The position numbers were made by a program, and so were the translations under genes. Under the pieces are notes generated by a model. That model was not told where the DNA came from, ran no database searches, and was given only the letters and a program-made list of their open reading frames with translations. Of a stretch of 64,000 nucleotides of DNA, positions 65 to 58,546 are shown in pieces. How positions within the stretch are numbered: position 1 is the first letter of the stretch; each line of letters starts with the position of its first letter. The DNA is from Closterium sp. NIES-65 (Eukaryota; Streptophyta; Zygnematophyceae; Desmidiales; Closteriaceae): the NCBI GenBank assembly GCA_948144175.1, contig CANXME010000236.1:1-64000 (forward strand), given 5' to 3'.

Positions 65-2120
65 GCCATCAGAGGAGGAGGAGTCGGTGCTGCAGGTCAC
101 AGCCCCCCAGGGCCAAATCATGCGCTGCGCGTCTCCCTGTTGGATAAGTGCTGCTTTTGTTTCCCTCCCTGCCCATGCTCCTTCCACTTCACCATCAGAG
201 GAGGAGGAGTCGGTGCTGCAGAGCACGGGTCCCTAGGGCCGAATCATTTGTTTGTGTCCCTGACCCTCCCTCCTACCTGACGCTCTTCTCCCCTCCACTC
301 ACTCTGTTTTTTTCACCATCAGAGGAGGACGAGTCAGTGCTGCAGATCACGGGTCCCCAGGGCCGAATCATGCGCTGTGTGTGGGGCCCTCTCAACCAGA
401 CGCTCATAGGCACGGGGGAGGACTGCATCATCCGCATGTGGGACGCAGAGGTGAGCGGATGTGCTGTGTTCATGGGTGTAATGCTGGATGGTAGTGATAG
501 GTAGGGTGCTGATGGTGGGTGAATGTGAGTGGTAGGTCCCCACTCAACAAAACACTCATCGGCACGGGGGGGAGGAGGACTGCATCATCCGCATGTGGGA
601 CGCCGAGGTGAGGCGGATGGGTGGTGTTGATGAAGGGGGTAATAGGTGATAACGTTGGTGTTCATGGGAGGTGTGCTGTGCTGCTAGCGAGCCTGCGACT
701 AGCATGTGTGTGTGGGACCCACTCCACCAGACCCGCTCAGGTGCACGGGGGAGGACTGCATTATTTGCATGTAGGACGCTGAGGTGAGCGGACGGGTGGT
801 GGGTTCCCTGGTGGGGTGGGGGCTTTACTCATGCACACCCGCCGTGTGAGTCGACTCAACACTTGAAACGTCTATCAAGACTTTTCACGATGCTGCCGCC
901 CATCCATGCCCACATGCTCGCGTTCCCCAGTGCCCCTCTATGCCCATCGCTTGCTTCCCGTGCCGACCTTACTACCTTCCCTCTTCCCCATTTATCCCAC
1001 TCTCTTCCTCTCTTCCTCTCTTCCTCTCTTCCTCAACGCACTCGGATGGGCAAGCTGTTACGGGAGACGGAGCCTGAAGTGACGCACAGCAAGACCTGCC
1101 TTCCATGCATGTGAATTCCCACCCACCCCTCTCTTCCCTCTTTCCTCTCCCTCCGCCCCTTGCTCTTCCAACACACTCAGACGGGCAAGCTGCTGCGAGA
1201 GACGGAGCCGGAAGTGGCGCACAGCAAGACAGTGACGTCACTGTCCAAGTCAGCAGACGGGTCGCACTTCATCACAGGGTCGTTGGATAAGTGTGCCAAG
1301 GTGAGACTCCATGCATGTGCTAGAAAGAGTTAGTGTTTGTGCCACTGTAATCTGTCAGCAGACGGGTCGCACTTCATCACAGGGTCGTTGGATAATACGT
1401 GTGCCAAGGTGAGCTGGAAGAACGGAAAAGAAGGGAGAAGGGAGAAAGTACACAGTAGTCCCTGTGACAAGTTTTCTCCTTCAGGTTTAAGCAGGAGAAC
1501 TTGCCAGCAGATGAATCGCTTCCACCTGTGACATCTTTTTCTCTCTCTCTCTCTTCTCTCTTTTCCCCCCCTGCTAACGTGTGTTTTCGTTCTTTGTGAC
1601 TTTCCTCTTCCCAATGCAGCTGTGGGACACACGCACACTGCGTCTGCTCAAGACGTACCAGACAGAGCGACCCATCAATGCCGCTGACATCTCCCTCTCT
1701 TCGACCATGTCAGTTCCTCTCCTAGTTCGATAATTTTTGTCTCACTCCGGCTGACGGTGTTAGTATCACCTTTCTATAACCACTTGAGCCTCACCTCTGG
1801 CTGCTCAAGACGTACCAGACAGAGCGACCCATCAACGCCGCTGACATCTCCCCTCTCTTCGACCATGTCAGTTCCTCCTCCCCTCTCCTCGTCCACTCTC
1901 ACTACCTCACCAATCAGTTCCCCTCCCTGCCTTCACAACGACCATCACCTTTCTTCCTCCCTTTATCTCTCTGACATTCTCTGGGAGGAGGTCACCATGC
2001 TGCATGTGTCACCAACAGGTGATCACCATATTGCTACCTCCTGTGGTTTGCCTATCTCCTATCGTTCCCTGCATGTGTGTTGGGAGGAGGACAGGATGCT
2101 GCATCTGTCACCACCACTTG
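65..2120 (+). repeat. Partial exon copies in eIF3i introns
   Basis: Start-of-exon copies of the 323-450 exon lie upstream at about 65-112 and 204-239. End-of-exon copies lie downstream at about 541-607 and 716-783, each followed by GTGAG. The 1181 exon has a start copy at 1042-1101 and an end copy at 1357-1410. The 1620 exon has an end copy at 1798-1866. The 2175 exon has start copies at about 1983-2025 and 2078-2120. Copies differ from the exon by substitutions and small indels, so they are not simple read duplication. Confidence 0.8.
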
Positions 2121-2755
2121 ATAGTCATGATTGCTTTCTCCTGTGGTTTGCTTATTCCCGACGTTTGCCTGCAGGTGGTGCTGGGAGGAGGACAGGATGC
2201 TGCATCTGTCACCACCACTTCGTCCCGAGCAGGCAAATTTGAAGCCGTCTTTTACCACAAGGTTTGTGATCCCTGCTCTGTTTTCTCTGTTCCTCTCTGT
2301 CCCTCATGAGCCTCTTCTGTGGACGAATTTGTGCTACTTCAGTGCCACTTGTGCTTTCCTCCCTTACTCGTAGTCGATTCTGTTTTGTTATTACCGTATG
2401 AAGAAGGTCGCTCAGTGCCTTGTGCTCAGTGCCCATGCATTTGCTGTTTCCCTTGTGAACGATCATTCTGGCAGGTATTGGAAGAAGAGATTGGCCGGGT
2501 GAAGGGCCATTTCGGCCCGTTGAACGCTCTTGCGTTTGGCCCTGATGGACGAAGGTATGCAGCTTTGAATTATTGTCACTTCGTCTCAGGTTCTCGGCTT
2601 CATTCATTGTCACTTTTCTGTTTTGTTGGAGTGTCTTCAGTGGTCAGGGAGCTCATTGTTTGTTGGTGTTTGTATGCAGCTTTGCAAGCGGTGGAGAGGA
2701 TGGTTATGTCCGACTTCACCACTTCGACAATGACTACTTCCATATTCGAGTCTAG
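323..2755 (+). CDS. Eukaryotic translation initiation factor 3 subunit I (eIF3i/TIF34), 3' part
   Basis: WD40-repeat subunit of the eIF3 complex, which acts on the 40S ribosome in the cytosol. Exons with GT/AG ends: 323-450, 1181-1300, 1620-about 1710, 2175-2261, 2475-2554 and 2680-2755 (TAG stop). Diagnostic stretches are [58 protein letters not shown] and the terminal [18 protein letters not shown], which follow plant eIF3i from the middle WD repeats to the C terminus. The N-terminal half lies outside the window. The 1620 exon lacks one C near 1708 that its downstream partial copy (1798-1866) retains, so the frame breaks there as assembled. Introns are full of partial exon copies. Family identity is very secure; the status of the 1620 exon is not. 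Confidence 0.93.
847..858. repeat. Short palindrome with TCGA core
   Basis: TGAGTCGACTCA, a short member of the palindrome family seen at many places in this window. It lies in an eIF3i intron between end copies of the previous exon and a start copy of the next exon. Confidence 0.6.
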
Positions 2756-3424
2756 ATTAGTTCATGTTTTGAATTCAAGTAGGATATCAGTGCATGTTTC
2801 TGTTTTTGTTGCTAGCTGCAATGTACGGTACCAGCATTTTGTGCTTGCTTAGCATTGACAAAGTTTTATTTCTCGTGCCTAGCATATATAATTATACAGG
2901 TCTCAATTGCGCATGTAACTGCTAAGCAAGCAAAGCCTTCGTCAACGCATCAGCAGTCCACGTGTCAGTCGCTCGGACGATGTACCACCTGCGACCTCCA
3001 GAAGCAGGAATCCCCCACCCCAGCCAATCAGGTGATATCATCGGCGTTCTCCCTATGAAGCCCTATCCTCCTTACAGCCACGCATTCTCCCAGCCAGAAA
3101 CTTGATTATGGCTCAGATTTCCATCTTAGGACTTACCCCTTCTCACAGATGCTCTTCTTTTCTGGTTTATTTTCATTCAATATAGGGCCAGTCGTAGAAG
3201 ACTGACAGCTCCTGTTGACCAGCTACTTTTCTTTCCTGTCTTGCGGAAACTAGTATCCTTAGCAGATTAGTAGAACCAAGGAGAGGAAGTAGCTGTTTTC
3301 CTCGCGCTCTCCCACGCCGCAGACATTAGCACACCAGAAGTTTGACTTGTGAAGGTATATCTATAAGGTTGCTGATCGTTTCAACCGTTTCAGGCTCAAG
3401 CTTGGCTAGTGAAAGACGTCAGCA
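2756..3424. other. Intergenic region between eIF3i and eIF3j
   Basis: About 670 bases holding the 3' untranslated region of eIF3i and the 5' region of eIF3j. I see no open frame, RNA gene or recognisable promoter element that I can defend. Confidence 0.5.
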
Positions 3425-6256: not shown

Positions 6257-7540
6257 TTCTCGTCAGTCATCTGCTAGAAGACCTCTCAAATGCCACTCAC
6301 TGTTCTATAGCGTTATCACCTCGACCTCCCCCGAAATTCCACTGGTGGGCAAGGACACCAATCAGATGAGAGAAGTCGCGCGCTGCTCATGCCTTCGTGT
6401 GCCTGCTCTTGCTCCCTCCCTCACCCTCCCTCCTCCCTCCCGTCAAGTGCAGAAAAGCTTTCACTATGTGTCGCTGATCAAGAACATCCGGAGAAAGGTG
6501 GAAGCTCCTTTGGTTGGGAAGGAGTCCAAGGAAAATCAGCGCTGCTGCTGCGGTGATCGCGAATGAGAAGCTTAGGCAGAGAAGGAGGCAGAGAAGGGGA
6601 AGAAGAGGGGCGGTGAGTGGGGGAGAGAAGAGGGAGGAGTGATGGAGAGGTTGGTGGTGGGGGCGCACTATGATGGCTGGTAGAAGGTTTGGGATGGGGA
6701 GCGGAATGGGGGATTAGCGGGCTGGTCGAGAGATGAGTGGAGGGTCCGTTGTGGGGAAGGACGCCAAGGAGATCAGCGCTGCTGCTGCTGTGATCGCGAA
6801 TGAGAAGCCTAAGGCGGAGAAGGAAGCAGAGAAGGGCAAGAAGAAGGGCGGTGAGTGCAGGGAGTGATGGGAGGGGAGAGAGGGAGAGAAAGGAGGGGAG
6901 CTGAGTGAGGTGGGAGAAAAGAGAGGTAAGTGAAGGGAAAGAGGGGAGATGGGTGAGAGAAGGGCAGAGGACGCTGATTTGGGTGCAGCAGTGGAGTTAG
7001 ATGGAGAAAAAGGGTTGGTGTGGAAGCACATTGTGCGTGATGGAATGCACATTGTGCGTGAAATGGGAATGCACATTGTGCGTGAATGGAATGCACATTG
7101 TGCGTGAATGGAATGACACATTGTGCGTGAATGGAATGCACAGTTGTGCGTGGAATGGAAAGCACATTGTGCGTGAATGAATGCACATTGTGCGTGAATG
7201 GAATGCACAGTGTGCCGTGAAATGCACTCAGGATGGGCTTGGATGGAATGGATGTGGTTTGACATGCAGCACTGAATGCACATTTTTGACGTGCTGCAAC
7301 GGATGTTTTGCTCATTCTTTCTGAATCATGAGTCATGACCCATGTTCCTTTCTATCCCTGACCATGTCCTGAACATGGTGTGTGTACACCCTGTTGCATG
7401 CGTGTCTCCCGTGTACTGTCTGTGCGGCGTGGCTCGTCAGTTTTGCAGCCAAGAAGCAGCAGTTGACAGTGGATAGGCCAGAAGATGACGACTATAAGGG
7501 CTCTTATGCCGGTCCTGATGATGATTATGACTTTATGTGA
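3425..7540 (+). CDS. Eukaryotic translation initiation factor 3 subunit J (eIF3j/HCR1)
   Basis: Loosely bound eIF3 subunit that contacts the 40S decoding centre. Exons: 3425-3440 (MSDDW), 4527-4639 (DADDFEPPPVVV and an acidic run), 5006-5136 (Lys/Glu-rich, ending LADPVAEKLRQQR), 5911-6063 (LVEESDFKATKELFGG, then DDFLPKSEADFNEFADLIAARI), 6453-6612 or the copy ending at 6850 (KSFHYVSLIKNIRR, then AAAAVIANEK), and 7449-7540 (VDRPEDDD to DDDYDFM, TGA). Order and motifs follow plant eIF3j; total size is about 220 residues, normal for the family. Phases agree across exons 1-4 except for one missing base near 5962 inside exon 4. Exon 5 exists twice: a full copy with three small indels (6453-6612) and a later copy (about 6757-6850) without an acceptor but with clean frame. 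Confidence 0.9.
4480..4507. repeat. Poly-C tract in eIF3j intron 1
   Basis: An uninterrupted run of about 28 C just before the exon 2 acceptor, within a pyrimidine-rich stretch (about 4380-4520). Confidence 0.9.
5219..6850 (+). repeat. Partial exon copies in eIF3j introns
   Basis: Three downstream copies of the end of exon 3 lie at about 5219-5274, 5421-5475 and 5560-5616. Each ends in a GTGAG donor and resembles the exon less with distance. The 6757-6850 segment repeats the second half of exon 5 with its GTGAGT donor, and a short fragment sits near 6335-6370. Confidence 0.75.
6172..6251. repeat. (CT)n microsatellite
   Basis: Roughly 80 bases of CT dinucleotides with occasional interruptions, in an eIF3j intron. 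Confidence 0.9.
7024..7215. repeat. 22-base minisatellite in the last eIF3j intron
   Basis: About nine head-to-tail copies of a unit close to GCACATTGTGCGTGAATGGA plus two bases, with small indels. Frames through it are open but low-complexity and are not treated as genes. Confidence 0.9.
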
Positions 7541-14190: not shown

Positions 14191-17100
14191 CTGCAGGAGT
14201 AGGGGGGAAAGATGGGGAAGGATGGCGGAGTGAAAGGAAGGAAACGAGGGAGAAAGGTTGGAAGCATGAGGGAGCAATTGTGGGAGGCGAGGTGGTGGTT
14301 AGGGAATGGAGCAAGTGATGAAACAAGTCAGTAGGTAATGGAAGGAAAGGTCCCAAAGTGCCAATACTAACACAGACACACTGAGACGAGACACCTCCCA
14401 CCACAGCGGTGACCACGTGTGACCAAGTGTGACCACGTGTGACCAAGTGTGACCACGTGTGACACAAGTGTGACCACGTGTGACCAAGTGTGACCAAGTG
14501 TGACCACGTGTGACCAAGTGTGACCAAGTGTGACCACGTGTGACCAAGTGTGACCACGTGTGACCAAGTGTGACCACGGTGACCAGGTGTGACCACGTGT
14601 GACCAAGTGTGACCACGTGTGACCAAGTGTGACCAAGTGTGACCAAATGTGACCACGTGTGACCAAGGGTGACCACGTGTGATTCACCACCAACTGGTGG
14701 TAGTGCTTGAGCATGGGCTTGATGGCAGGTGCAGCCCCTTCACCTTAAGTCGACTTTTGAGTCGACTCAAAAGTCTCCCGCCACAAGCGTTTTCACCACC
14801 AACTGGTGGTACTCTTTGATCATGGGTTTGATGGCAGGTGTGGCCTCTTCACTTTAAGGCGCCTCACCTCAACGATAGGCGCAACTACGATTGTCTGGAG
14901 GATTGGTACTCACACAGACGCACTGCGACACCTCCCTCCAGAACGCTTTCACGATAGGCGTTGCCGTCAAACTGGCAGACCTGGTAGTACTCCTTAAGAA
15001 TTGGCCTGATGGCTCGTGTGGCCTCCTCTTGCCTCCTCTGTTTGAGGCGATTAATGAATAGGCACGACTACAATGGAATGGTCAGAAGGGTTGGTAGGTA
15101 CTCACACAGACGCACTGTGACACCTCCCGCCAGAGGGCTTTCACGATGGGAGTGCCGTCAAACTGGTAGTAATCCTTTAGGATTGGCTTGATGGCTCGGG
15201 TGGCCTCCTCCGCATGGTAGTGCGGCATGGTGGAGAATATGTGATGCGCCACGTGGGTGTCCGCGATGTGATGGTGCACTGGTGGTGGGAGGGGATGGGA
15301 GAGGGAGAGGGGGGAGAGCAGGGGGGCATACAGCAGGCAAGGGGTTGTTCAGATAGTTAGAAAGAGGCATGGTGGAGAATATGTGATGTGCCACGTGCGC
15401 GTCCGCAATGTGATGGTGCACTGGTGGCGGTGGCGTGGCGGGGGGAGGGGAAAGTGGGGAAGAGGGTGTGAGGCCGAGGGAAAATACAGCAGGGATGGTG
15501 TTGCTCAGTTAGTGAAGAAAAGGCATGGTGGAGAATATGTGATGTGCCACGTGGGTGTCCGCAATGAGATGGTGCACTGTGTGTGGTGGAGGGGAAGTGG
15601 GGTAACGGGAATGAAGGAGGAGGGAGGAGTGGGGGCGGGGAACGAGGGAGAACCAGGGTGAGATTAGTGGGCAAGGCATGAATGACTTAGACACCACACC
15701 GTACCACACCGAACTACGCCAGACCGCACGGCACCGCACTGCACTGTGGGCTCACTGACCGATGTTGAGGTAGCCGTAGTCGCGGTCGACAGTGGCGAGC
15801 GCCCCTCGCAGCCACTCCCACTCGGTCGAGTCGAAGTGTGGCAGGGCGGGGTGCGTGTGCTGCAGCAGCGTGATGAGCACCAGGAACATGTTCACTATGA
15901 GGAGAGGGCAAACATACACCTGCAACGGAGAGAGGGCGAAGGAATTAAGGTGAAGGAAAAGGGCGGGGGCGGGGAAGGGGCACAGTTGTACGGCATCGTA
16001 GGGCGGGGTGCGTGTGCTGCAGCAGCGTGATGAGCACCAGGAACATGTTCACTATCAGGAGAGGACAAACATAGACCTGAAGAGGGCCGAGGGGGGAGGA
16101 ATCTGGGGTGTGGGAAAGGATTGCGAGTCTGGAAGAGGGCAGCGTTAGTAAGGGTGGTTGTGTGTGCTGCAGCAGCGTGGTGAGTGCGAGAAACATGTTC
16201 GCTAGGAAGAGCGGACACACATGCACCTGGCGAGGGGCGATACTGCGGACACACATGCACCTGGCGAGGGGCGATACTGCGGACACACACAGCCATGCTG
16301 CATCCGTGTCTTGATCACCCACCCATGCAGGACCATAGGCACCCATGCAAGGCCTTAGGCACCCATGCAAGGCCATAGGCACCCATGCAAGGGCCTTAGG
16401 CACCCTTGCAAGGCCATAGGCACCCATGCAAGGCCTTAGGCACCCTTGCAAGGCCATAGGCACCCATGCAAGGCCTTAGGCACCCTGGCAAGGCCATAGG
16501 CAACCATGCAAGGCCTTAGGCACCCATGCAAGGCCATAGGCAGAACCGAGGGATTAAGGCACCCGAGCACTCTCTGTAGATTCCCTCCCTGATACGCGAT
16601 TGCCATGCTGAAACCATTCTACAGCTGAGCCAAAGCCGTACGTACCTTAAGCACCCATGCGAGGCCATAGGCCGAGCCGAGGGAGTACAGGCACCCGAGG
16701 CACTCCCAACAGCCCCAGATCGCTCACAACCACCCAGAACCGCTCCCGATCGCAGAAAATCCCGAGTAGGGGCTGAAGTGGTTGGCATGCACGCCCTTGT
16801 ACTCGTGGCCCGACACGTTGAAGGCGAGATAGAGCGGCCAGCCAAGGGTGAGCGTGATGAAGATGGAGAGCACGCGCCCAAAAGGGTGCTGCAGGTACTC
16901 TGACACTGGCCCCAGCTGCTCCCTTCTCGCCGGCACAAACACCTGGCGTGGGCGTGAAGGTTAGATAACAGAAAAGTGTTGGAACAGGCACGCTCACACA
17001 CTCGCGCCCAAAGGGGTGCTGCAGGTACTCTGACACTGGCCCCAGCTGCTCCCTTCTCGCTGGCACAAACACCTGGCGTGGGCATGAAGGTTAGATAACA

Positions 17101-19860
17101 GAAAAGTGTTGGAACAGGCACGCTCACACACTCGCGCCCTAAGGGGTGCTGCAGGTACTCTGACACTGGCCCCAACTGCTCCCTTCTCGCCGGCACAAAC
17201 ACCTGGCGTGGGCGTGAAGGTTAGATAACAGAAAAGTGTTGGAACAGGCACGCTCACACGCTCGCGCCCAAAGGGGTGCTGCAGGTACTTCCGACACTGG
17301 CCCCAGCTGCTCCCTTCGCGCCGGCACAAACACCTGGCGTGGGGAGGAGGCAGGAGGAAAAGGGAGGTGGGAGGATGTGGGCGGAGAGGGGCAAGAGGGA
17401 GGGGGAAAGTGGGAAGGGGCAGGGCAGGGAGATAGAGCGGCCAGCCGAGGGTGAGCGTGACGAGGATGGAGAGCACGCGCCCAAAGGGGTGCTGCAGGTA
17501 CTCCGACACTGGCCCCAGCTGCTCCCTACGTGCAGCACATACACCTGGCGTGGGGAGAGGGAATGGGGGCAAGAGGGAGTCAGCGTGATGAAGATGGAGA
17601 GCACGCGCCCAAAGGGGTGCTGCAGGTACTCTGAGACTGCCCGCTTCGCGCCGGCACAAACACCTGGCGTGGGGAGGAGGAGGGACGCAAGTGAAGGAGA
17701 ATGACGTTACAAGTCAATAGGATGGAAGGGGTGCTGGAGACCAAAGGGGTGCTGGAGACCAAAGGGGTGCTGCAGGTACTACGTGTCTGCCGCCAGCAGC
17801 TCCTTTCGTGTGGGCACGAACGCCTGGGCTGGGGAGGGAAACAGAAATCCGTCGGTTCAGTTTTGAGTCGACAAGTGCAACAGATGGGCATTTGAGACGT
17901 TTCGACAGAAGTCACCAATCAAGCTTTGAGAATGAGAGTTGTGAGTTTATCTCGAACCATCAACTCGAACCATTACGAGCTTGCAGCCTTGCAAGTGTAA
18001 TTACACCCACTTATAACCACTCTACTTGTGCGCATGCAATCCCACCCCCTTATAACCACCCTACTTATGCATGCAAGCACGTACCTCGTCATTCTCCAGG
18101 CTGCCCGTGTTGCTGTGGTGACGGCGATGGCTGTATTTCCTGCGCAACCAAAAATGAGGTGAGGGGGGAGGGGGGGAGAGGAAGGGGGAGGCGAAAGAGG
18201 AGGAGAGGGGAGGAGAAGAGGGTGGTGAGTGTTGAGTTGCTGTGGTGGCGGTGGTGGCTGTATTACCGGCGCAACAACAAGGAGGGCGGAGACAGGACGG
18301 TGGGCGCTCGAGGTGACTTTTGAGTCGACTCAAAAGGACGGTGGGCGCTCGGGACTGGATCTCCTCAGCACGGGAGAAAGCGGGTGGTGACAATCAGGTC
18401 AGCTAATGCGTGAGGAAGCTGAGAAAGGGTTTGAGTTGGTTGGATGGGAGATGTTGGTGGGGCTGGAGAAGGGCCCAGGGGTTCTGTGAACGACATAGTC
18501 GACTCAAAAAACGCCTTGGGGAAATGTGTCGGGAGGAAGCAGAAGCAAAAGGATCCATTGATGAAGTATAATTTGGAGCTATTCTTAACATGGTTGGTTT
18601 CGTTGGTCTCTGTCCGTTCAAACTTCAAGATAGGCATGCCACCTCGCCCAAGTCCTTCTGAAGTTACCAGAGATTTCGACCTGACATTTAACGTATGCCA
18701 ATCACTAAGAGAGAGCTCATCCCAATCGGAAGAAATCGTCAAAGAACACTTCCAGAGGCTCTTCTTTCTCTTAGAAAGGTTCATATCCCAGCCGGAAGGA
18801 TTTCAAGGCTCACCAGGAGAAGTAAGGCACGAGCAGCCAGGAGTGCACCACCATGCCGACCGTGTCATTCACAAACGCGTAGTCCGAAAACGCGCCATGG
18901 CCGCACTCGTGCGCGATCACCCACAGGCCCGTGCACACGCACCCCTGCAGCCACGTGTACAGCCCCCACAGGATCACCGACACCGCCGGCCGAACGTACG
19001 GCTGGAGATGCGCCGGGAGGCGCGATTCAACGGCCGGATCTACGAGTTGGTGGATGTCGTCGAAGCGCGTGGTGGCGTAGAGGAATAAGGCGGCGAAGGC
19101 GAGATCGATAAGGAGGTAGGCGGAGGAGCGCAGGAGGGAGCGCTGGAAACAGTGGGGGGGGATGGCTCGGCGCAGATCTCCCAGGGTGAAGGGGGGCTTT
19201 GCCTGCCAGAGAGAAGGGGAGAAAGAAAGCCGTTGGAACTTAGTTTGAGACGGATGAGGAGGTAGGCGGAGGAGCGCAGGAGGGAGCGCTGGAAACAGTG
19301 GGGGGGGGATGGCTCGGCGCAGGTCACCCAGGGGTGAAGGGGGGCTTTGCCTGGAGGCGGAAGGGGAGAAGGGAGACAAATGGAAATGAGTGTGAGATAG
19401 ATATGGGGTTTTGGCGAGGAAGGGAATGGAGCTGGAACGACGGCTGATCAGCTGTGGTGAATGGGCCTGATTTCACAGGAGGTTAAGATGGCATTAGGAT
19501 CAATCAAACACCTTAAAGTCTTCAACAGTTGACTGTTCTGAATGATTAGTCCACGAATCGGTTTGTTCTGACAAAGTCAAACGGCATCGAACCGAATGGG
19601 ACTTATTTCCATGGTTATCTGTAACGTTCTCCAGGAATCTGACTGACGAAACGGGACAGATACCGGAACTAGACTCACAGAAGGAGCTCGAGCGATATTC
19701 TTGTTGAATTTTAAGATGTCTCAACAAATTTCAGAACTACACTCACCGATGGAGCTCGAGCAATCTTGTTCTTGTTTTTGTTGCTCTTCGCATCAGCAGC
19801 CGGTGCCTCGCTGACCGCTCGACGGTTCACAGCAGCGACCCCCTGACCTCCGCGACCCAT
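14131..19860 (-). CDS. FAD2-like omega-6 (delta-12) fatty acid desaturase
   Basis: ER-membrane di-iron desaturase that would convert oleoyl to linoleoyl chains. Exons on the minus strand: 19747-19860 (starts [10 protein letters not shown]), 18814-19202 ([19 protein letters not shown], histidine box 1 [11 protein letters not shown]), 18085-18139 ([19 protein letters not shown], box 2), 16646-16942 ([21 protein letters not shown]), 15760-15919 ([33 protein letters not shown]), 15106-15278 (box 3 in [23 protein letters not shown]) and 14131-14190 ([13 protein letters not shown]). The pieces total 1,248 bases, or 415 residues, against about 383 in plants; the excess is N-terminal. Exon 4 has two compensating one-base shifts, so its middle is out of frame as assembled. 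Box 1 has Gly where plant FAD2 usually has a second His, as in omega-3 enzymes; the histidines needed for an HX3H box remain. Confidence 0.88.
14409..14682. repeat. 10-base minisatellite
   Basis: About 27 copies of TGTGACCAAG or TGTGACCACG in the last FAD2 intron. The C form produces a CACGTG at each junction, a typical E-box/G-box core. Its long open frames ([19 protein letters not shown] type) are products of the repeat and are not called as genes. Confidence 0.95.
14752..14775. repeat. 24-base perfect palindrome, TCGA core, between direct copies
   Basis: Arms GACTTTTGAG and its complement around TCGA. A second, shorter palindrome AAGTCGACTT abuts at 14747-14756. The palindrome separates two copies of a FAD2 exon 6 fragment containing CACCACCAACTGGTGGTA (from about 14684 and from about 14792). 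Confidence 0.85.
15990..16215 (-). repeat. Partial copies of FAD2 exon 5 start
   Basis: Two copies of the exon start ([24 protein letters not shown] region) with acceptor, at about 15997-16080 and 16152-16215, on the gene's 5' side of the intact exon 15760-15919. Confidence 0.8.
16317..16545. repeat. 20-base minisatellite derived from the end of FAD2 exon 4
   Basis: About eleven copies of TAGGCACCCATGCAAGGCCA with T/A variants. The unit matches the complement of the exon 4 end (coding GLAWVLK, 16646-16680), so the end of the exon seems to have been amplified into the intron. Confidence 0.85.
16990..17820 (-). repeat. Array of six partial copies of FAD2 exon 4 start
   Basis: Copies of the acceptor plus [20 protein letters not shown] coding sequence begin near 17075, 17215, 17335, 17550, 17665 and 17825 (minus strand). 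The first three units are about 140 bases with the same intron tail, ending in CACGCCAG before each copy. The intact exon (16646-16942) is the one farthest downstream in the gene. Confidence 0.85.
18218..18280 (-). repeat. Partial copy of FAD2 exon 3
   Basis: A decayed copy of the exon carrying the HRRHH box lies on the gene's 5' side of the intact exon (18085-18139). Its acceptor region is altered (GGTAATACAG instead of AGGAAATACAG). Confidence 0.7.
18317..18336. repeat. 20-base perfect palindrome, TCGA core, between 17-base direct repeats
   Basis: CTTTTGAGTCGACTCAAAAG in a FAD2 intron. The 17-base sequence AGGACGGTGGGCGCTCG occurs on both sides, at 18294-18310 and 18335-18351. Confidence 0.9.
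19245..19705 (-). repeat. Partial copies of FAD2 exons 2 and 1
   Basis: About 19245-19356 repeats the start of exon 2 ([28 protein letters not shown]) with small indels. About 19676-19705 repeats the end of exon 1 including its donor. Confidence 0.75.
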
Positions 19861-40700: not shown

Positions 40701-42404
40701 TGCTTCTGGAGGCGGCACAGGCAGGTGGGTTGCAGTTGAGAGCTTTTTCCATGGCTGAGAGGTGCGCGTGCGAGGCGGTGAGGAAGGTTAAGGAAGGCCT
40801 GCGGCGGTGGACACAGGAGGAGATGCTTCTCGAGGCTGCACAGACAGGAAGGTGGGGTGGGGTGGGGTGCGGTTCAGGGGGTGGGTGCAGGTGGATTCGG
40901 GGTTCAGGGCTTTTGATATGAGCTTGAGATGGGCCACAGAGGTACTAGCAAAGGAAGGTGCAGTTAAGTCGGTGAGGCTAATTGCATGCATGGCTGTCCG
41001 TGCTTGCTCACTCTCCTTGTGCCCTATCACGCCCATTGCAGAGGTTCTGAACCGGGAAGCGTTGGGAGTGATGCTGGGGGAGGGAGGAGGAGGTGAAGAG
41101 GAAGGCTGTGGTGGAGAAGGGGGGATGCATGGGGCCTCCTCTTATCCAGATTCGTCCCATTCCCCTTCTCCCGCATCATTGTTCCACTGACAACCCGTAT
41201 TTTGAGGCGCCTCAAAAGTCGTCCCATTCCCTTCTCCCGCATCATTGTTCCACTGACAACCCATCACAGAGATTCTGGTGTGTTTTGAGTCGACTCAAAA
41301 CACACCTTCTCCCGCATCATTGTTCCACTGACAACCCATCACAGAGATTCTAAACCGAGAGGCCCTGGCAGTGATGCTGGCGAGGGAGGAGGAGGTGAAG
41401 CGGAAGGCCGTTGTGGAAAAGGCAATCTTTGGTGGGCCGCAGATCCGATTCCACTCCAAGGACGGTGAGATCAAATCAAATCTTATTCCAGAAAGGCATT
41501 CTGTTGTTGAATAGCAGATTGATTCCACCCGAAGGGCAGTGCAAGCAACCACTCTCCCCCCCCCCCCTCCCCCTTCCCCACCCACCTCCCGCTTTCCCTT
41601 CCCCACACACCCTCCTCTTCCCCCCCCTTCTTCCGCCCCCCCTGGACCCAACCGAATTCCCTTGACAGGGAAGAACACCCTTGAGTTTACCAAAGTGGCG
41701 GCTGTTCTTGAGGTGCCTCAAAACTCCCCCTCCTTCTCCCTCCCTCCCACCCTTTCCTCTTCTACCGGACCTTATTAATTCAACTTCACAGGGAAGAACA
41801 CCCTGGAGTTCACCAAAGTGGCGGCTGTTCCTCCAGAGATCAACGCAAAGGCGCCTTCCTGTACGTCCCCACTAGCAACCCCCCCCCCCAACGGCTTTTG
41901 GAGTGACTTTTTTGAGTCACCTCAGAAGTCACCTTTTGAGTCGAATCAAAAGTCCCCTCCAGAGATAAAACGCAAGAGCGCCTTTCTGTACGTCCCCACT
42001 AGCAACTCTTTCTCAGCGGCTCCTGTTCCTTCTGTGCCTTTACCTTATGAGCAATTTTTTTGGCCCTAAAGGCACATTCACATATGCTCACTCTTACACC
42101 TCTCCAAAATCAGCCATATAATGGCTTTTAGTCGCAATCAATTGTTTCTTTGAAGTTGAAATGGTCTCTTTATCCACCATGTTTATGTTGCCTTTGAGCG
42201 TTCCCTCACACCAATGAGCTTCGTTCCCATCCCACTACCCTCCCACTGTTCTTTTGCGAACCCTCCGCAATCTTTTGGCCTTCATTTCTGTTCCCTCCTT
42301 CCTCTTCCTGCAGACCCTGCCAAGCCCACTTGTGTGATCACAGGTCTACCAGCAAAGTACGTTTCCACTACTCTTCTCTACACCACCTCCTACTGCTGCT
42401 GCTG

Positions 42405-50233: not shown

Positions 50234-53200
50234 AGCGTCTGCTGTCGCGTCTGCCACTGTGCCTCCTCCTGCTGCGGAACAAACAGCAAGCCAGAGCGAA
50301 TGCTAGGCTCGGAATGCACCCTCCTGTGCTGCTCCACCCCGCTGCTCCTCGGCTCAATGCCACTGCTTGCGTGTTGCGGCGCGTCGAAGATCCTCGGCTC
50401 AAAGGCGCTCGTAGTGTGTTGCGGTGCGTCGAAAACCCTCGGCTCAAAAGCGCTGGTAGTGTGGTGCAGAACGGTGGAGTGAGCTTGCATCGCCCTCTGC
50501 TGCTGCAGGCGCTGCGCCATGAGGTTGAACTCGCGAATGTCATCTGCATACTGTGCAACCAGGGAGAAAAAAACACAAGGAGAAATGGAGGAGAGCTCAG
50601 GTTTTTAACAAGGCGGCTCAGAAGCATGTGCTGCTGTGCCATGAGGTTGAACTCGCGAATGTCATCCCCGCACTGTGCAACAAGGGAATAAATGAGTAGC
50701 GGGCTTGTTAAGAAGTCCATTCTCAAGACGCGAGCCCAACGCACATGCTCGAACACAAGCCTAAGGCACATGCGGAAGACACACTTACCATGGCCAGATC
50801 AAAGTTGGTAACTGCCTGCTGGCCCCTCTGCCTGTAAACCAGCCATCGCAGCGACACGGAGGGAGAAAGAGGGGGGGGCGTAGGGACGGAGTGAGGAGGA
50901 CATAATAGTCGGATCGGATTCCCAAAAGCCGCTTGCATTGAGATGTGTTTTGAGGCACCTCAATGGGAGCGCAGAGACGGAGTGAGGAGGACATAATGGT
51001 CGGATTCCCAAAAGCCGCTTGCATTGAGGTGTGTTTTGAGGCGCCTCAAAACACACCTCAATGGGAGCGCAGAGACGGAGTGAGGAGGGCATAATAGTTG
51101 GATTCCCAAAAGCCACTTCATAGCGACTTCATAGACTCGTACATGGTTGGCAGTGATTGGAAAACGCTCACCTCACAGCAGCCCTGTCATACGCCATAGC
51201 AGCTTGCTCCTGCGTGTCAAACAACCCCAGGTAGTCATATCGCTTGCCCTCCCTCAAACCTCCAGCAAACCTCTATGGCTGAGACCGAGTCCAAGAGTAC
51301 GTGGTTGATTGGCACAAGGGTTTCTCACCTCCCAGCAGCCCTGTCGTACGCCACGGCAGCCTGCTCCTGCGTGTCAAACAACCCCAGGTAGTCATACCGC
51401 TTGCCCTCCCCTCAGGTAGGGTTCTTTTACAACATAAGCCACAGTGACTGAGAACCACTCACCTCACAGCAGCCCTGTCATACGCCATAGCGGCCTGCTC
51501 TTGTGTGTCAAAAAGCCCCAGGTAGTCGTATCGCTTGCCCTCCACATGCCCTATCCTCGCCTCCCACCGACCCTGGGAACGAGGGAGACGGGATGGGAGA
51601 GAAACGGGGAAAAGGGGTGACCAAACAGCCCCAGGTAGTCATATCGCTTGCCCTCCACGTGGCCAATCCTCGCCTCCCACCGACCCTGCAAATGGGGGAG
51701 AGACGGGTTGGGAGAGACAAGCGGAAAACTAGGTGATCAAATAAACCCAGGTAGTCAAACTTGCCCTGCACATGGCCTATCCTCGACCTCGCCTTTTTTT
51801 CTGCCCCATTTTTTTTAGTCGACTGAAGAATTATTCCACCTCGCCTACCTTCAGCACAACCCTACACCCTCACTTTACCTTCTGGTGTTTGGTCACCCCT
51901 CGGTACTTGGACGTCCCTCGAGCAAAGCCCTTGCTGTGCCGCCGCAGCAGCAGAATCAGCTCCTCTTTGGGAACGGCCTCTGGTGGGGTTCGGTAAGAGG
52001 GGTGATGGGATAGGGGAAGGATGGACGAAGAGGAAGATGAGTCAATCCCTGTAAGCACGCAAAGCACACAAAGGACCACAGTTTTTATTTCTTTCAACTG
52101 TCTGTTCCACCGCCTCTGGTGTGGCATGGCACGAAATGAGGGACAGGGAGGTGGACGAACAGGAAAATAACCTCTGGGAACGACATGACAGGCGGTATGT
52201 TTTTCTGTGTATCTTTTAGAGTCGACTCAAAATTCATCTCCTTTTGAGACAGGTCAAATGACGATCCAAAAAGACAGCTCACCTATCTCCTTGGTATACT
52301 CCTCAGGCGGTCGGTTCGTCTGTGCGTCTTTCTGAGTCGACTCAGAAACTTGAAACAACTCAAACGGTGACCCGGGAAGAAGGCTCACCTATTTCCTTGG
52401 TGTACTTGGTATACTCCTCAGGCGGGAAGTTTGTATGTGCATCCTCATGATTCGACTTAAAAGTAATCTCAGTTTGAGGCAACTCAAACAACGATTCAAA
52501 ATGAAGCCTCACCTATTTCCTTGGTGTACTTGGTATACTTCTCCGGCGGTAGGTTCAGCTGGCATGCTTTTGAGTAGACTCAGAAGTCATCTCCTAATGA
52601 GACAGGTCAAACGACGACCCAGAAAGACGGCTCACCTATCTCCTTGGTGTATTTGGTATACTCCTCAGGCGGTAGGTTCGTCTGTGCGTCCTCGCCCCTG
52701 CGCACATGACACCAGTGCGGCATGAGTAAGCAAGAGTGATTGCAGCCTTTGCCAGCATGTGCCAGCTTGACGAATTCACATGTATGGAAAACATCAGCTC
52801 AGCAGCATGTGTCACCATCACACCGCATCATTGCCTCCACATGATTGTATCTGGAGTGTCTGTGTCCTCACCTCATCTTGAGTGCAGCTATGTCATACAT
52901 CAGTGCTGCCTGCTTCTCAGAACCGAATCTCATGTTACACACACACAGAAACACGCACACACGTGTGATTGATATCGTACATGCGTCACTCCTCACCTCA
53001 TCTTGAGTGCTGCTATGTCATACATCAGCGCTGCCTGTTTTTCAGAATCAAATCCTCCCAGATACACCTGCCGCCCCTCCTCCCTGCGCCCATCCATTCC
53101 CACATGACCAAGATACACAGAACGAGACACACGGAGAGGCACGTGAAGCAACACAAAACGGGACACAGAAGTGGGCACGTGGAGAAGGCACACAACAGAG

Positions 53201-56200
53201 GAACACATGGAAGAAAGCAGCTGGAAGAAGAGAGCACCCCACCATAGCCATTCTATCTGCAGCTCTTACCACTACCTAGTTAATCTTCCGTAAAGCATAG
53301 GCGCACATGCCAATGCCATAGCAACCTGACAAATGAGCAACCTGCCCCATATATGAGCCTCCCACCGCCCTGTGCGGCAGTGGTGCGTCACCCCTCTGAA
53401 CTTGGACGTGCTGTTGGTATGGCTCTGCACCACTACCGCCCCACATACACCGCATCTCATACTACTAATGAAACTGCCAGCTATCTCTCACAGCGCAGCT
53501 CACTCACCAGATGTGAGGAGCCTCCCAGCGCCCAGTGCGGCAGTGGTGTGTCACCCCTCTGAACTTGGACGTGCTGTTGGCCGGCCGCTCCCTCTGCAGT
53601 ACTGCTGCTCCTCATACCTCTACACCAGATGAGGTGAGAAGAACTGCACTCACCAGATGTGCGCCTCCCAGCGCCCAGTGCGGCAGTGGTGTGTCACCCC
53701 TCTGAACTTGGACATGCTGTTGGCTCTTCACTACTGCTGTCTCTGATACACATGCTGCAAGCATCCCCATGCACGGCTCCTAGTACCCCTCACTGCTTGC
53801 TATTCCCTCACAGCAATTCTCACCAGATGTGGGCCTCCCAGCGCCCGGTGCGGCAGTGGTGAGGCACCCCTCTGAACGTGCTCTTGTCTCTGCATCACTG
53901 CTGTCCCAAACACACACAGCTATGGCTACTACTACCCCTCACACTGCCTGCTATCCCTCCAGCACAGCTTCACTCACCAGACGTGAGCCTCCCACCGCCC
54001 GGTGCGGCAGTAGTGTGTCACCCCTCGGAACTTGGACGTGCTGTTGGCCGGCCGCTTCCTCTGTTGCCCCACATGCACATGCTGTAGGCACCCACATACA
54101 CCTCAGAGAAGAGCTTCACTCACCAGATGTGCGCCTCCCATCGCCCCGTGCGGCAGTGATGCGTCACCCCTCGGAACTTGGACGTGCTGTTGGCCGGCCG
54201 CTTCCTCTGCACCACCCGCCTCGCCTTGCCCTTGCCTGCCTCTGCATTGCTTGGCACGGAGGAGGCCGCGGCGAGAGACAGAAGCACAGAGAAGCCAGAA
54301 GGGAGGCTGAGTTGGCTTGAGATGCCTAGAATCTTGTCACAGGGTGACTCCTGTTGGCTTGTCGCTTCCTCTGCACCACCCGCTTCGCCGCGCCCTTGCC
54401 TGCCTCTGCATAAATTTGAACAAATGGGCGAAGCAAAGCAAGCACGAGGACAGAGAGGTAAAGTAACGAGCAAGCACCAAGCGCTGCTGACGGACCCGGT
54501 TGCAGCAACTGCTGCTTCTGAGACACGGCACGCATTATCCATGATCATGATTGGTGCTCGCCGCTTTTGAGAGCCCCAGCATGATTTTTTTGTCAACTCA
54601 GGCGACGGTTGCAGCAGCTGGTGCGTCTGAGACCGTACAAGCATTATTCATGCGAGGATTGGTGCTTACCGCGTTTGAGAGCGCCAGCATCATTGGGAGG
54701 GACGGCTCCCTCGCTACTGGTCACTCTGAAGGCCGTTGGGGGAGAGCAGGAGGCAAGGAAGGGAAGGAAAGTGAGGGGAGAAAACGGTGTCAGATTAAAG
54801 GATCCACAGGCGAAAAACTGGCAGAAATTATATCTCTAGTGGCTTGCACAAAGCCTACTGCGAGTCGAACCCCCTAGTCATAACCCCCTCCTCGTCTCAA
54901 GGCCCCTTTTTTTACATCTGGCTGTCCTGCCTCGCAATCGAAGATGATTCGCCATGCACACACAAGCTCGCTTGGCTTTTGAGTCGACTCACGATTCATC
55001 TCCTCCCGAGCCCCCCCCTCTCCCTTCTGGACCCCCTTCTACTTACATCTGGCTGTCCTGCCTCGCGATTGAAGATGACTCGCCATCCACACACGAGCTC
55101 GCCTGGGGCTTCTCAATCTCCGCCTCGATCCGACCAATCAGATCGTCCCACTCCAGCTCCTGAGGCGTCTCAGCCGTTGGATGCGCCAGCAGCATGCCGT
55201 GGATCACAGGCGCCATACCGCCAGCCGACCCCTCTTGGCCTGTGTTACATAAGGATGGAGATTCGAGAGGGCATGAGAGTGCTGTCAACAATCCAAAGCA
55301 GCATGCTTAAAGACAATTCAGACGAAAACGCCTCAAACTGGGTGTAAGAGGGTGTGAGAGAGCTGCCCATCCGCAGCATGCTGCAAGGTACGAATGGATT
55401 CCTCTACTACACACTCACCCTGATCTGGGCCAGCACCCTCTGATCGTCTGCCTCCCCACCACCACGTGAACTCGTAGCATGTTACAAGGTGAAAAGCCGT
55501 TCCTCTCACACACACTCACCCTGCTCGATGTAGCCGTTGAGGGGTTCGGGTCGCACGGACTGCAGAATATGGAGTGGCGGCTGAGCCAACACCCTCTGAT
55601 CGTCTGCCTCCCCACCACCACCAAGTGAAGTCGCACCATCTCTTCCTGTCTCTCCTCCCCCGCCTCCACTCCCTCCGCCTCCTCCACCCACCATGTCGGC
55701 TCTGTCCATGCCATATCCACCACCACCATTCTTCTTTGCTGCTGCTGCTGCTGCTCCGCCTTCCACCTGCTGCAGCTCCGCAGGCTCGTCACAGCTGCAG
55801 CTGCTCTCTCGCCCATGCATATTCCCGTCAATCTCTCCACCCACCATCAAGCCTTGCCGCGTCACCAACCCTTGGCCCGCAACAGAACCACCCTGATTCG
55901 GCTCAAGACAGCCAGGCAGCAGGGCCACTGCAGGTGGAATGAGCAGGCGGATAGCGCCCGTCTGCAATCCATTTACAGTCGCTCCTCCATAGGCTCCTTC
56001 CAGCACAGCAGAGTCAGCATGACCGTTAGTGTTGTCAGCATGGCCGTTGGTGTTGCCAGAATGGCCGTTAGTGCCAGCATGACAGTTAGTAGTGTCGTCA
56101 GCACAGCCGTTGATGTTGCCAGCATGGACGTTAGTGTTGCCAGCACAGCCGTTAATGTTCCCAGCATGGCCGTTAGCGTTGGTAGTAGTAGTAGTGTCTC

Positions 56201-56462
56201 CCACGATAGAGTTGTTTTCCTCAAAGATACTCTCAACTCTCTGGTGGTGGTGGTTGTGGTTGTGTGGACTGTGGTGGTTGTGACTGTGTCCATTGTGGTG
56301 GCTGTGATCCATCCCGTGAGCTGGCAAATCATCCGCCATCCCAGGGAGGGTAGAGCTAAGCGCATGCCCACTTCCAAGCATGTAACCACCACCATTACCA
56401 CCATCACCACCAGCAGCAACACTATGGCCCTTACCCTTCCCGACCTCCCCTGCCTCCATCAA
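47752..56462 (-). CDS. AP2-subfamily (double AP2 domain) transcription factor
   Basis: Nuclear DNA-binding factor. Ten minus-strand exons, all in phase (4,512 bases, 1,503 residues): 55520-56462, 55047-55239, 54670-54725, 54124-54241, 52997-53083, 52636-52697, 51879-51979, 51463-51572, 50789-50831 and 47752-50550. The N terminus is His/Asn/Gly-rich with NGHAGN-type repeats. A basic ARRVVQRKR precedes AP2 domain 1 ([40 protein letters not shown]). The linker has [10 protein letters not shown] and [17 protein letters not shown]. Domain 2 is [46 protein letters not shown], then [10 protein letters not shown]. Domain 1 lacks the ten-residue insert of the ANT/BBM group, so it looks euAP2-like. The last exon (933 codons) is poly-Gln and Ala/Pro/Ser-rich, plausibly an activation region. 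Exon choice among partial copies was set by phase. Confidence 0.92.
50945..50965. repeat. Imperfect palindrome, first unit
   Basis: TTTTGAGGCACCTCAA within the tandem unit whose second copy carries the perfect palindrome at 51022-51063. Confidence 0.75.
51022..51063. repeat. 42-base perfect palindrome, GCGC core
   Basis: The longest in the window: 21-base arms, the inner part TTTTGAGGC and its complement, the outer part CATTGAGGTGTG. It lies within a tandem repeat of about 100 bases (CGGATTCCCAAAAGCCGCTT ... GGGAGCGCAGAGACGGAGTG; units around 50911-51011 and 51000-51115). Confidence 0.92.
52219..52228. repeat. Short palindrome GAGTCGACTC
   Basis: Part of TTTTAGAGTCGACTCAAAA, one base off a full member. 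Next to the farthest copy of the YTKEI exon. Confidence 0.7.
52329..52348. repeat. 20-base perfect palindrome, TCGA core
   Basis: TTTCTGAGTCGACTCAGAAA between two copies of the AP2 YTKEI exon end. A degenerate version, CTTTTGAGTAGACTCAGAAG, sits at 52567-52586 between the nearest copy and the intact exon. Confidence 0.88.
54980..54991. repeat. Palindrome TGAGTCGACTCA between exon copies
   Basis: Preceded by TTTT on the left only. Lies between the end of AP2 exon 2 (55047-55105) and its partial copy at about 54910-54976. Confidence 0.8.
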
Positions 56463-58546
56463 ACGCTGGAACAGTTACCCTGCTATCACCAGCCGCCAGA
56501 TGCGCTTTCTCCGAGGAGATGGAGTGAATACCACTATCACTCACTCCGCGAGCGTTTCTGGGAAGCGGAAAACTTAGGACACTCCCAGATTAGGCAACGA
56601 GGGAGGGACGGATGCCCGAGATACGTTGCACGAGGGACGGCTGTGACAGAACGAGGATAGCTGGGGCTGGCAAGCGGGACTGAGGGATTTAGCACCAGAT
56701 TGAACTGAACGCAGCGAGGAAATGTGAGTTCCGAGGCCCGAGACTGGCACCTAAAAGGCTGGAAAAAATGCGCACAGTCAGTTGGCGCATCACGTGCAGC
56801 ACAGACGCGGGCAGTTGCCCGAGAGGGACGCACGGGCGCTAGCTCGAGGGAACTCGAGGGATCTTGGGAAACTGAATGCTTGAACGGAGAAGGGAACCTT
56901 GCGGAACCGATGAATGTTTGAACGAGGAAGGAATCCTGTCTGGATCCTTTCACCTCGGATTGGCTCTCGAACATAGATGAATGACGGTACGAGGCAGCGG
57001 AGATGCAGCAGAAGCAGCTCGAGGTTGATAGAAAGAGTCCAACCGAGACAAGAGGCAATATGCAAAACGCAAGAGGCAATAGGCAGGAGGGAGGCAATGG
57101 TGCATATTGATCCATTGATTGATTCGAACTCGGCCGGACCGCGTCGACGGTCTCCAACCAAAGCAGATCCACGGTCACGATTGAGAAGCGTCACCGCGAT
57201 TGAGAAGCATCGAGACCGACCCAGGCGCTCGATACATCCCGACGCGCGTCAGGAACCTTCTCGTGTCCTTCCGGAGAGTAAAAAACCAGCGATGCAAGGG
57301 CGATGCAGCCAAGCCGCCCTTCTATGCACTCTTTCGGGAGAATATCCGGAGGCCAGGTGCGTGAAGCGTGTTTTGAGGCGCCTCAAAACACACCTCACTG
57401 CACGGAGAATATCCGGAGGCCAGGTGCGTGAAGTGAGCGGAGAGCGCGAAACGTGGCTGCATGCAGGCGCACGCACATGAGCCCCCGCGCCTTGTTGTAC
57501 TCGAGAAACTCGTAACGGGAAACTTGGAATTGAGAAGCTCGTAAACGGGAAACTTCCAGTCGAGATTGGGATCTCCGTCCATTGCCGCTTCCCGCACGAG
57601 GAAACTTCGTCCAATAAGAAAACCTCGACCGATTACAGCCCGTACGGTCAGGGAGAAGGCTTCCTGACAACCGGCTAATTGGACGGCTGACGTCAAGTCT
57701 GACCGAAGGATGACAGTGCCAGCCGGATCTGACGGGTGCGGTTGGTGTGGTAGGTGTGGTAGCTGTGGTCGGTGTGGCCTCGACTGCTCAACTGTAACTC
57801 TCGCTGTAACTCGCATCGACCTACCGGCATGCACGCATCTAATCGAGAGCTGCGGCATTCCCGTGCCTGATAGCTAGATGGAAGCCTCGGAGGTGTCGAC
57901 AGGAGGACGCTCGAGCGATGGCTCATGGCGTCAGCTGGATCGCACGCTACTAATCGCAAGGTACGGGCCTCTATTGAAACTCGAAGTGAGGAAAAATCTT
58001 CTTAGCTGCCGACTCGATTAGGGAACCGCGTTGGACACTAGGTGAGCTGGAACTTTGAATTCCAGTATGGCTTGCACGGGACAAAAGTATGGTCTGTATG
58101 CGTAATGCTATCTGCAGTGCAATGCCGATTCGGTGAGCTCCATTAAAAGCTCTTGCTGCAAAGCGTAAAGCAATGGGATGGAAAATCTGTAAGTGGTCGG
58201 ACCATCATTGTGGTGACCATCATTGTTGCAGGCGGCCTTATTCTCTCCCACGACCTCGTTTTCAAATCCCGAGGCTTCCTCATCCGCGTTTGCTATCGCG
58301 GCGCGAAACGCGCCAGACCTCAGTGCAGGGCGGACTTCTCGAGGACAGATCAGAAGGACCTAGGAAAATGGTAAGTGGAGGCGCAATAAGAGTTCCCGGA
58401 ATAAGCTCAGTTGGCATTTAGGAAAACAAAAAGTGCATTTGGCTGTTGGAGATCCCGAGGATCCAGCAGAGAAGCATTCTCTTTGAGGTAGCTCCGTCAA
58501 AATTTAATAACGATGCCATAGATACACTTTTATCAAAGGCGCAATC
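56463..58546. other. Intergenic region upstream of the AP2 gene
   Basis: Divided between the AP2 5' region and the sulfotransferase 3' flank. Contains the 57368 palindrome with its 30-base direct repeats and a GGTGTGG-rich stretch near 57735-57780. Frames present are short and unconvincing; no gene called. Confidence 0.45.
57368..57391. repeat. 24-base perfect palindrome, GCGC core, between exact 30-base direct repeats
   Basis: Arms GTGTTTTGAG and complement around GCGC. The flanking 30-base repeats (57337-57366 and 57404-57433) are identical and begin GGAGAATATCCGGAGGCCAG. Confidence 0.93.

Follow-up and report, generated by a model that had tools for sequence, protein, structure and literature searches.

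Short palindromes coupled to small host duplications in the nuclear genome of Closterium sp. NIES-65

The DNA analyzed here, referred to as the window, comprises the first 64,000 nucleotides of contig CANXME010000236.1 of the alga Closterium sp. NIES-65. It contains seven exact copies of a palindrome, TTTTGAG-N4-CTCAAAA, with the centre TCGA in three copies, GCGC in three and AATT in one, and each copy lies between direct repeats of a host segment. We consider it probable, at roughly 70%, that these palindromes belong to a high-copy family of very short inserts that were captured at staggered breaks of the Closterium nuclear genome, with fill-in producing the duplication of host sequence. Apart from genome-wide counts, the sequence examined amounts to ∼0.3 Mb of this single Closterium genome and is a nonrandom sample of it.

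Palindromes and genes of the window

All seven copies that the initial annotation of the window had marked as clear proved to be exact and correctly placed, and its statement that most such palindromes lie between direct host copies held for each of them. The host copies measure 15 to 67 bp (67, 15-17, 51, 45, 45, 55, and 30 bp for events E1 to E7, respectively) and are 0 to 6 bases away from the palindrome on its left and 0 to 16 bases on its right. By comparison, 3.8% of 20,000 random window positions satisfied the same criterion for an abutting duplication, and the number of exact palindromes expected by chance was 0.00 on average in 100 dinucleotide shuffles. All seven fall outside the large transposon-type reading frames of the window, a comparison made with the reading frames rather than with element boundaries.

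At E1, two 67-bp host copies of 87% identity (14683-14749 and 14792-14858), which by eye carry desaturase-like coding sequence, enclose the palindrome GAC-TTTTGAGTCGACTCAAAA-GTC (14752-14775). E2 is an AGGTGAC-core insert, with its palindrome at 18317-18336, between identical 17-bp copies (18294-18310 and 18335-18351), the ends overlapping by shared bases. The 36-bp palindrome of E3 (37922-37957, AATT) separates 51-bp copies of 92% identity (37869-37919 and 37958-38008). At E4, the palindrome (41200-41217, GCGC) stands between copies of 45 and 44 bp that differ by one indel (41152-41196 and 41219-41262), and at E5 a 30-bp palindrome (41277-41306, TCGA) stands between identical 45-bp copies (41232-41276 and 41307-41351); since E5 overlaps a copy of E4, it represents a second event. 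E6 comprises a 42-bp palindrome (51022-51063, GCGC) with its host copies (50966-51020 and 51064-51118), and a shortened, internally reduced form of this palindrome (CATTGAGATGTGTTTTGAGGCACCTCAATG, 50936-50965) sits at the preceding unit junction. The palindrome of E7 (57368-57391, GCGC) is flanked by identical 30-bp copies (57337-57366 and 57404-57433); its arms are unequal, the right one continuing as ACCTCACTGCAC and the left one being shorter.

Relatives of the palindrome with a 4-base gap and one to three mismatches were found at 15 places in the window, a first-order Markov control predicting ∼2. Older events include a 41-bp duplication with an offset of 68 (19666-19774) around a degenerate palindrome at 19709-19726, a duplicated exon-type segment (41661-41830) with a degenerate palindrome at its junction (41706-41723), another duplicated segment (41830-42006) with two in tandem (41910-41927 and 41934-41951), and a gapped duplication of ∼92 bp (54884-55106) around one at 54977-54994. 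In the AP2-type gene, degenerate palindromes occupy the unit junctions (52215, 52242, 52330, 52472, and 52568) of a tandem exon array at 52189-52693. The copies at 52219 and 52329, which had been listed as separate cases, are with their neighbours unit junctions of this one array and look co-duplicated, whereas the short forms at 847 and 20811, which had also been taken for members, show no abutting duplication and may be unrelated.

Duplicated exon pieces were recognized by eye in a desaturase-like gene (∼14.4-19.5 kb) and in the AP2-type gene (∼47.7-56.5 kb). The former, a fatty-acid-desaturase-like gene on the minus strand (14400-19500), carries exon pieces (a 44-residue piece and variants of it) several times in tandem, many of them apparently pseudo-exons. 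At 51150-51800, also on the minus strand, a 26-residue AP2-domain exon is present several times, and four Closterium proteins carry one or two complete copies of it. Over 45% of the query, the C-terminal part of the AP2-type protein matches a Closterium sp. NIES-65 protein with 100% identity, and a sulfotransferase encoded in the window shares 89% identity with a Closterium sp. Yama58-4 protein (83% of the query covered). A 20-residue segment occurs once in each of the four Closterium AP2-type proteins, followed by EAVPKEELI in three of them and by an extra stretch in P0022, whereas the window holds several copies of the exon for this segment at 52189-52693. The extra exon copies thus seem not to be used in the protein, the four comparison proteins being themselves predictions.

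Two further repeats of the window have other sequences. The ∼22-bp unit of a minisatellite at 7021-7250 holds an odd palindrome, GCACATTGTGC, unlike the TTTTGAG family in sequence, and at 1228-1395 the palindrome GACAGTGACGTCACTGTC adjoins a 42-bp identical duplication (offset, 105) in a similar layout.

E4/E5, E6, and E7 each occur in three separate contigs (the window, C1986, and C2101) and E3 in two (the window and C2101). The cores coincide with restriction-site palindromes, which could point to an assembly or library artefact. However, the copies of E4/E5, E6, and E7 in the three contigs have differing neighbouring substitutions, and the range of palindrome decay is continuous. The genome paper, moreover, describes a PacBio assembly with linked-read correction (PMC10407611), and we regard an artefact as extremely improbable. 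The region at 41000-42100 has two nearly identical paralogs (C1986:293363 and C2101:123970-125372), in line with published gene copy-number variation. As judged from the coordinates of matching stretches, window ∼42.1-52.5 kb is ∼4 kb longer than its C2101 counterpart, and C2101:114400-115700 is without a match in the window; the discrepancy is possibly a mobile-element difference between recent paralogs.

Abundance and anatomy of the palindrome

In the whole assembly of 874,075,685 bases, TTTTGAGNNNNCTCAAAA (TTTTGAG-NNNN-CTCAAAA) occurs 30,327 times, compared with four occurrences of the reversed control, for which arithmetic (14 fixed bases in 874 Mb) predicts ∼3. An abundance no higher than chance, which would have spoken against the family, was thus not observed. 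The mean density is ∼35 per Mb and is uneven, with seven copies in the 64-kb window and one in seven 10-kb stretches that had not been selected for the core. TCGA is the centre of 13,080 genomic copies and ACGT that of 5,047. Centres, spacing, and arms were further counted in a 325-kb set, which takes in array members and stretches selected for ACGT copies; L052-L054 and L059-L065 (chosen paralogs or array) were left out of its core counts. The centre was self-complementary in 83 of the 88 copies in this set (ACGT, 34; TCGA, 31; GCGC, 14; AATT, 4). The earlier description of a variable but always self-complementary centre therefore applies to the seven window copies but not to 5 of these 88, and ACGT is as frequent a centre as TCGA in this set. 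An arm spacing of four bases was found in 88 copies, and spacings of 0 to 3 and 5 to 15 yielded two altogether.

Perfect palindromes of at least 20 bp contained the core in 45 cases and lacked it in three (264 kb, mostly core-selected; 18 of 20 fetched stretches), the numbers for the window alone being six and three. In 304 kb, sites with 0, 1, 2, and 3 core-arm mismatches numbered 55, 39, 31, and 22, respectively, and a reversed-arm control gave three in all. Outside Closterium, no match to TTTTGAGTCGACTCAAAA or to the longer GGTG...CACC form was found in the viral collection, although such collections may omit near relatives. TTTTGAGGCGCCTCAAAA occurred in one viral-collection contig and the GTG...CAC form in one prokaryote-genome contig; neither has a flanking duplication by eye, and we treat both as chance matches rather than as family members. 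A tRNA origin of the palindrome was also rejected, as ARAGORN found none. Literature searches, within a coverage poor in subscription journals, returned no description of a TTTTGAG-N4-CTCAAAA family, and the string "palindrom" is absent from the main text of the Closterium genome-size paper (PMC10407611).

Perfect symmetry spans 18 to 52 bp, the longest palindrome being that at L024:4603, and the copies form subfamilies by centre and arms, distinguished by matched changes on both arms. The arm of the TCGA type is GTCACCT, and its full form (AGGTGAC...GTCACCT) measures 32 bp. Among 52 TCGA arms in the 325-kb set, 0, 1, 2, 3, 4, 5, 6, and 7 bases of GTCACCT were retained in 7, 12, 2, 7, 11, 1, 3, and 9 arms, respectively. 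Full GTCACCT is thus present in 9 of 52 arms, and exact CACGTG, to which some ACGT-type arms extend, is present in an arm at 6 of 25 ACGT loci, with near forms at further ACGT loci; the others are trimmed or different. The full ACGT-type form would measure ∼54 to 58 bp. The GCGC loci E6 and E7 have CACACCTCA-TG in common, and four AATT loci differ among themselves. The view that TTTTGAG is constant and the arms beyond it differ between loci thus needs qualification: lengths do differ, by trimming, but the arms form subfamilies (GGTGAC/GTCACCT with TCGA and CACGTG in some ACGT copies).

While the ends of the insert are trimmed freely, cuts into the core are rare. Among 66 strand-counts of TTTTGAGTCGAC, 61 go on with TC and 50 continue to the complete core. 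Among 51 half-sites with a listed centre and no exact partner, a partner arm with one to three mismatches was present in 48 and none in three, where 7% would be expected by chance; those 48 partner arms have decayed rather than been cut. The core may thus be protected by a protein dimer or by a hairpin form. The TCGA-type end AG/GTGAC resembles a splice donor, and inserts of 22 to 44 bp look too short to be introns alone.

Alternatively, a larger inverted-repeat transposon could have inserted with a long duplication and left the palindromes behind as footprints or as products of internal deletion, each arising by a deletion between self-complementary tetramers of its ends. A palindromic tetramer is necessarily a direct repeat in inverted ends, so that self-complementary centres in 83 of 88 copies fit a deletion at such a tetramer, and the outer ends AGGTGAC and CACGTG, which recur within subfamilies, could be element termini. 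Larger elements of this kind are, however, not apparent in the 325-kb set: 15 of 17 ordered unpaired half-site pairs 30 to 5,000 bp apart lack a flanking duplication (scoring at most 9 in the test described below), and the two scoring pairs (30.5 and 43.5) both lie in one 24-bp tandem array (L014). Moreover, inserts next to identical host copies are already minimal, and we know of no transposon class with such long and variable duplications. We therefore consider a deletion origin unlikely.

Host duplications, empty sites, and age of the inserts

Coupling to host duplications was assessed with an end-anchored test, which looks for a repeat of the left flank's end at the start of the right flank, at a threshold score of 15 (strict) or 13 (looser). 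This test replaced an unconstrained local alignment (abutting duplication at 17 of 34 palindromes and any duplication at 31 of 34, versus 7.4% and 26% of 6,000 controls) because larger nearby duplications outscored the abutting one. Earlier controls of the end-anchored test were swamped by simple repeats, and control places for the strict test were hence taken outside tandem repeats, the palindrome sites themselves being unfiltered. Sites with too little flank, and array members that followed another within less than 150 bp, were left out before counting. Under the strict rule, a duplication was present at 34 of 40 independent palindromes (28 of 34 without the window), compared with 105 of 1,500 control sites, and under the looser rule at 55 of 65 palindromes, compared with 115 of 1,000 control places. 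Flanking duplication is thus commoner at the palindromes than elsewhere, as the initial annotation had supposed. L030 (C400:30001-40000), 10 kb of tandem repeat throughout according to TRF, was left out of the looser-rule count, as were L052-L054 and L059-L065, and also of the TTTTGAGTCGAC continuation count given above and of the decay test, the 135-event survey, and the 51 short-spacer events described below.

Recent duplications, defined by a copy identity of at least 95% and with first members of arrays counted, measure 13 to 83 bp (median, 30 bp; 24 cases), and recent nonarray inserts measure 22 to 44 bp (median, 34 bp), the palindrome making up 82% of their length (17 cases). As had been argued from the window, such lengths are not explained by a target-site duplication of fixed length. 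Miniature inverted-repeat transposable elements (MITEs) are non-autonomous, symmetric elements with a target duplication, but they are longer and have constant termini and fixed short duplications; MITEs and other DNA transposons with terminal inverted repeats were rejected on the range of duplication lengths. Target-primed reverse transcription, as for long or short interspersed nuclear elements, was rejected as well: instead of a constant 3' end or tail or truncation at one end, the shorter arm can be either one, with no common tail, and instead of a preferred nick motif, the boundaries of 26 nonarray cases gave no clear consensus.

For 50 loci, the expected empty junction was built and compared with the examined DNA. 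A second match across the joined flanks was found at six, of which five were inspected, three being clear and two ambiguous (L020 and L023); the sixth, L012:5107, was left uninspected. The empty site of L019:1164 consists of two neighbouring segment copies, each with a single CGGCCCAGCCCCAAGC and without the palindrome. That of L012:1299 consists of two neighbouring, mutually identical copies in which a ∼60-bp stretch occurs once, and that of L013:971 is a paralogous segment in L009 in which a ∼20-bp stretch occurs once, both again without the palindrome. TTTTGAG is absent from all three clear sites. Since these sites have one host copy, no palindrome, and no TTTTGAG, insert and duplication arrived together, in one event, at these three loci, and most others sampled are consistent with this. 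For the same reason TTTTGAG is part of the insert rather than a pre-existing target, which conflicts with the earlier idea of nicking at TTTTGAG.

The palindromes have decayed about as far as the copies that flank them. At 104 duplicated sites (duplication score of at least 13 over at least 20 columns), 109 self-mismatches were counted in nine core base pairs, compared with 91 expected from the divergence of the flanking copies, and self-mismatch was inversely related to copy identity (rank correlation, -0.42; p = 7e-6). Palindrome and flanking copies thus look about equally old. That the palindromes are kept perfect by repair was rejected, mismatches at the 104 sites being close to those expected from the flanking copies; at the 45 of these sites with exact core arms, a class chosen for exactness, 27 mismatches would be expected.

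Perfect symmetry, together with subfamilies that have matched changes on both arms, might indicate that each palindrome arose locally at a break, through template switching or fold-back, and was perfected afterwards, and a fold-back event had indeed been suggested for the window. This is difficult to reconcile with identical arms at unrelated loci, with three empty sites that hold no seed, and with the similar rates of decay of cores and flanking copies at duplicated sites. The palindrome thus looks imported, and a local origin appears quite improbable.

The E5 unit occurs once in the window and in C1986 and has five palindromes in C2101, the sequence being otherwise nearly identical; the array at E5 is secondary. 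The C2101 array consists of five 75-bp units and that in C1052 of at least 22 units of 65 bp, and decayed GCGC-type units (TTTTGAGGCGCCTAAAAAATCACC and variants) are repeated in tandem at L014 8170-8470, with a period of 24 bp. Given such arrays (C2101, C1052, and others), the host-palindrome-host layout could be a two-copy array in which a pre-existing palindrome was caught in the tandem duplication of its neighbourhood, as in minisatellites. Identical host copies around a single palindrome (E5, E7, and L012:1299), however, require a preceding insertion and duplication. The L014 and C2101 arrays have host copies on both sides, one more than the palindromes, and the three empty sites, where a single host copy stands without a palindrome, contradict such dynamics, which we regard as very improbable.

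Mechanism, known systems, and implications

For capture at staggered breaks, the reading that we favour, the target would be opened by opposite-strand nicks tens of bases apart, the insert would be joined between the broken ends, and fill-in of the single-stranded overhangs would yield the duplication. The ends of the insert would be trimmed to, and rarely into, the TTTTGAG-N4-CTCAAAA core, shielded by a bound dimer or hairpin. After the event, the palindrome and its host copies age in step, and tandem arrays arise from some junctions. An excised DNA hairpin, an RNA hairpin copied or inserted at the break, and a trans-acting mobility protein are candidates for the donor. In other organisms, small tandem duplications are known to arise from staggered-break fill-in with end joining; these patch-mediated or paired-nick duplications are likewise variable and tens of base pairs long, but no constant insert is described in the accessible part of the source (PMC8355091), whereas one palindrome family fills the junctions studied here. 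A variable tandem duplication at the insertion site that is missing from the empty site, as patch repair would produce, was thus seen at three loci; the junction insert, which patch repair would leave absent or random, is instead this one family. Schiml 2016 and Vaughn and Bennetzen 2014 reportedly deal with small tandem duplications of the patch-mediated or paired-nick kind.

Several points weigh against our reading. Ten of the 65 palindromes scored below 13 for flanking duplication (4.5 to 11). Among 135 local duplication events, 36 had the palindrome and 99 did not (3 without filler, 13 with other short filler, 7 overlapping arrays, and 76 with long spacers). Of the 51 short-spacer events, 18 hold all or half of the palindrome and 33, some of them minisatellites, do not; only a half-core was found in two, both in L015 and adjoining complete cores. 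Eighteen of the first 20 stretches were picked for the core and the others were the first contigs listed, so that rates are specific to the sample, and the constancy of the centre is owed in part to core-based searching. The decay test takes sites with at most three core-arm mismatches, which limits the observed count. The cut sites of the 26 nonarray cases show no clear motif at either boundary, and neither an enzyme nor a donor has been identified, no search for an enzyme having been made. As many duplications lack the palindrome, we regard the palindromic element as a contributor rather than the sole cause and do not claim it for most microduplications.

A core kept across subfamilies at a fixed 4-bp spacing, trimming that rarely cuts it, and recent copies with identical flanks would also be expected from dedicated transposition, in which a dimeric trans-acting protein would bind the core, mobilize the element, and cut the target with a loose stagger, making this an extremely small REP/RAYT-like or MITE-like system. 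The stagger is, however, more variable than in the transposases known to us, a clear cut-site motif is lacking in the cases compared, and no enzyme has come to light, none having been searched for; we consider this possibility doubtful, if worth keeping in mind. Tiny palindromic high-copy elements, some of them moved in trans, include bacterial REP/RAYT, Rickettsia palindromic elements, fungal mitochondrial double-hairpin elements, and GC clusters. To our knowledge, the REP/RAYT, Rickettsia, and fungal mitochondrial elements are not eukaryotic-nuclear, and a long variable target duplication is not a feature of them.

The organelle DNA of Volvox carteri carries short palindromic repeats (14 to 79 nt in the plastid), with copies in nuclear DNA, that are seen as selfish DNA (PMC2670323). 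Like the Closterium palindromes, they are short, high-copy, hairpin-forming, and located in noncoding DNA of a green alga; unlike them, they have 3- to 5-nt loops and other motifs, and their nuclear copies are judged apparently inert (PMC2670323), whereas the Closterium palindromes are nuclear, mostly loop-free, in some cases recent, and accompanied by a host duplication of 13 to 83 bp. Compared by eye, the Volvox plastid motif given there, TCCCCTTTAGGGA, and its TAAA/TTTA loops differ from TTTTGAG-N4-CTCAAAA (PMC2670323). The symmetrical stwintrons and cropped introns of Hypoxylaceae also proliferate, are largely inverted repeats, and have been proposed to enter at breaks during repair; they are, however, functional introns of ∼100 to 200 nt, inserted seamlessly and without tandem site duplications (PMC8469720). 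Insertion of an RNA hairpin at breaks has been proposed there for symmetrical fungal introns, which have no duplications (PMC8469720).

Taken together, the palindromes resemble miniature mobile DNA of a hitherto undescribed sort. They may even constitute a new class of nuclear mobile DNA, namely, a self-propagating palindrome of a few tens of base pairs whose core is recognized by a cellular or selfish protein. Such a palindrome would enter through widely staggered breaks, or make them itself, and would be a leading source of small tandem duplications in this alga, duplicated exon pieces among them, but we offer this only tentatively, at somewhat less than even odds. If a protein recognizes the core, few mobile elements known from eukaryotic nuclei would, in our judgement, be smaller. 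The usual interpretation of small tandem duplications and junction fillers is that they are random scars left by break repair. Closterium seemingly provides a very large set of scars with the same labelled insert, in which the stagger, the trimming, and the age of each event are directly readable. In this close algal relative of land plants, it thereby becomes possible to test the origins of small duplications and of duplicated exon pieces, the latter being possible precursors of new introns.

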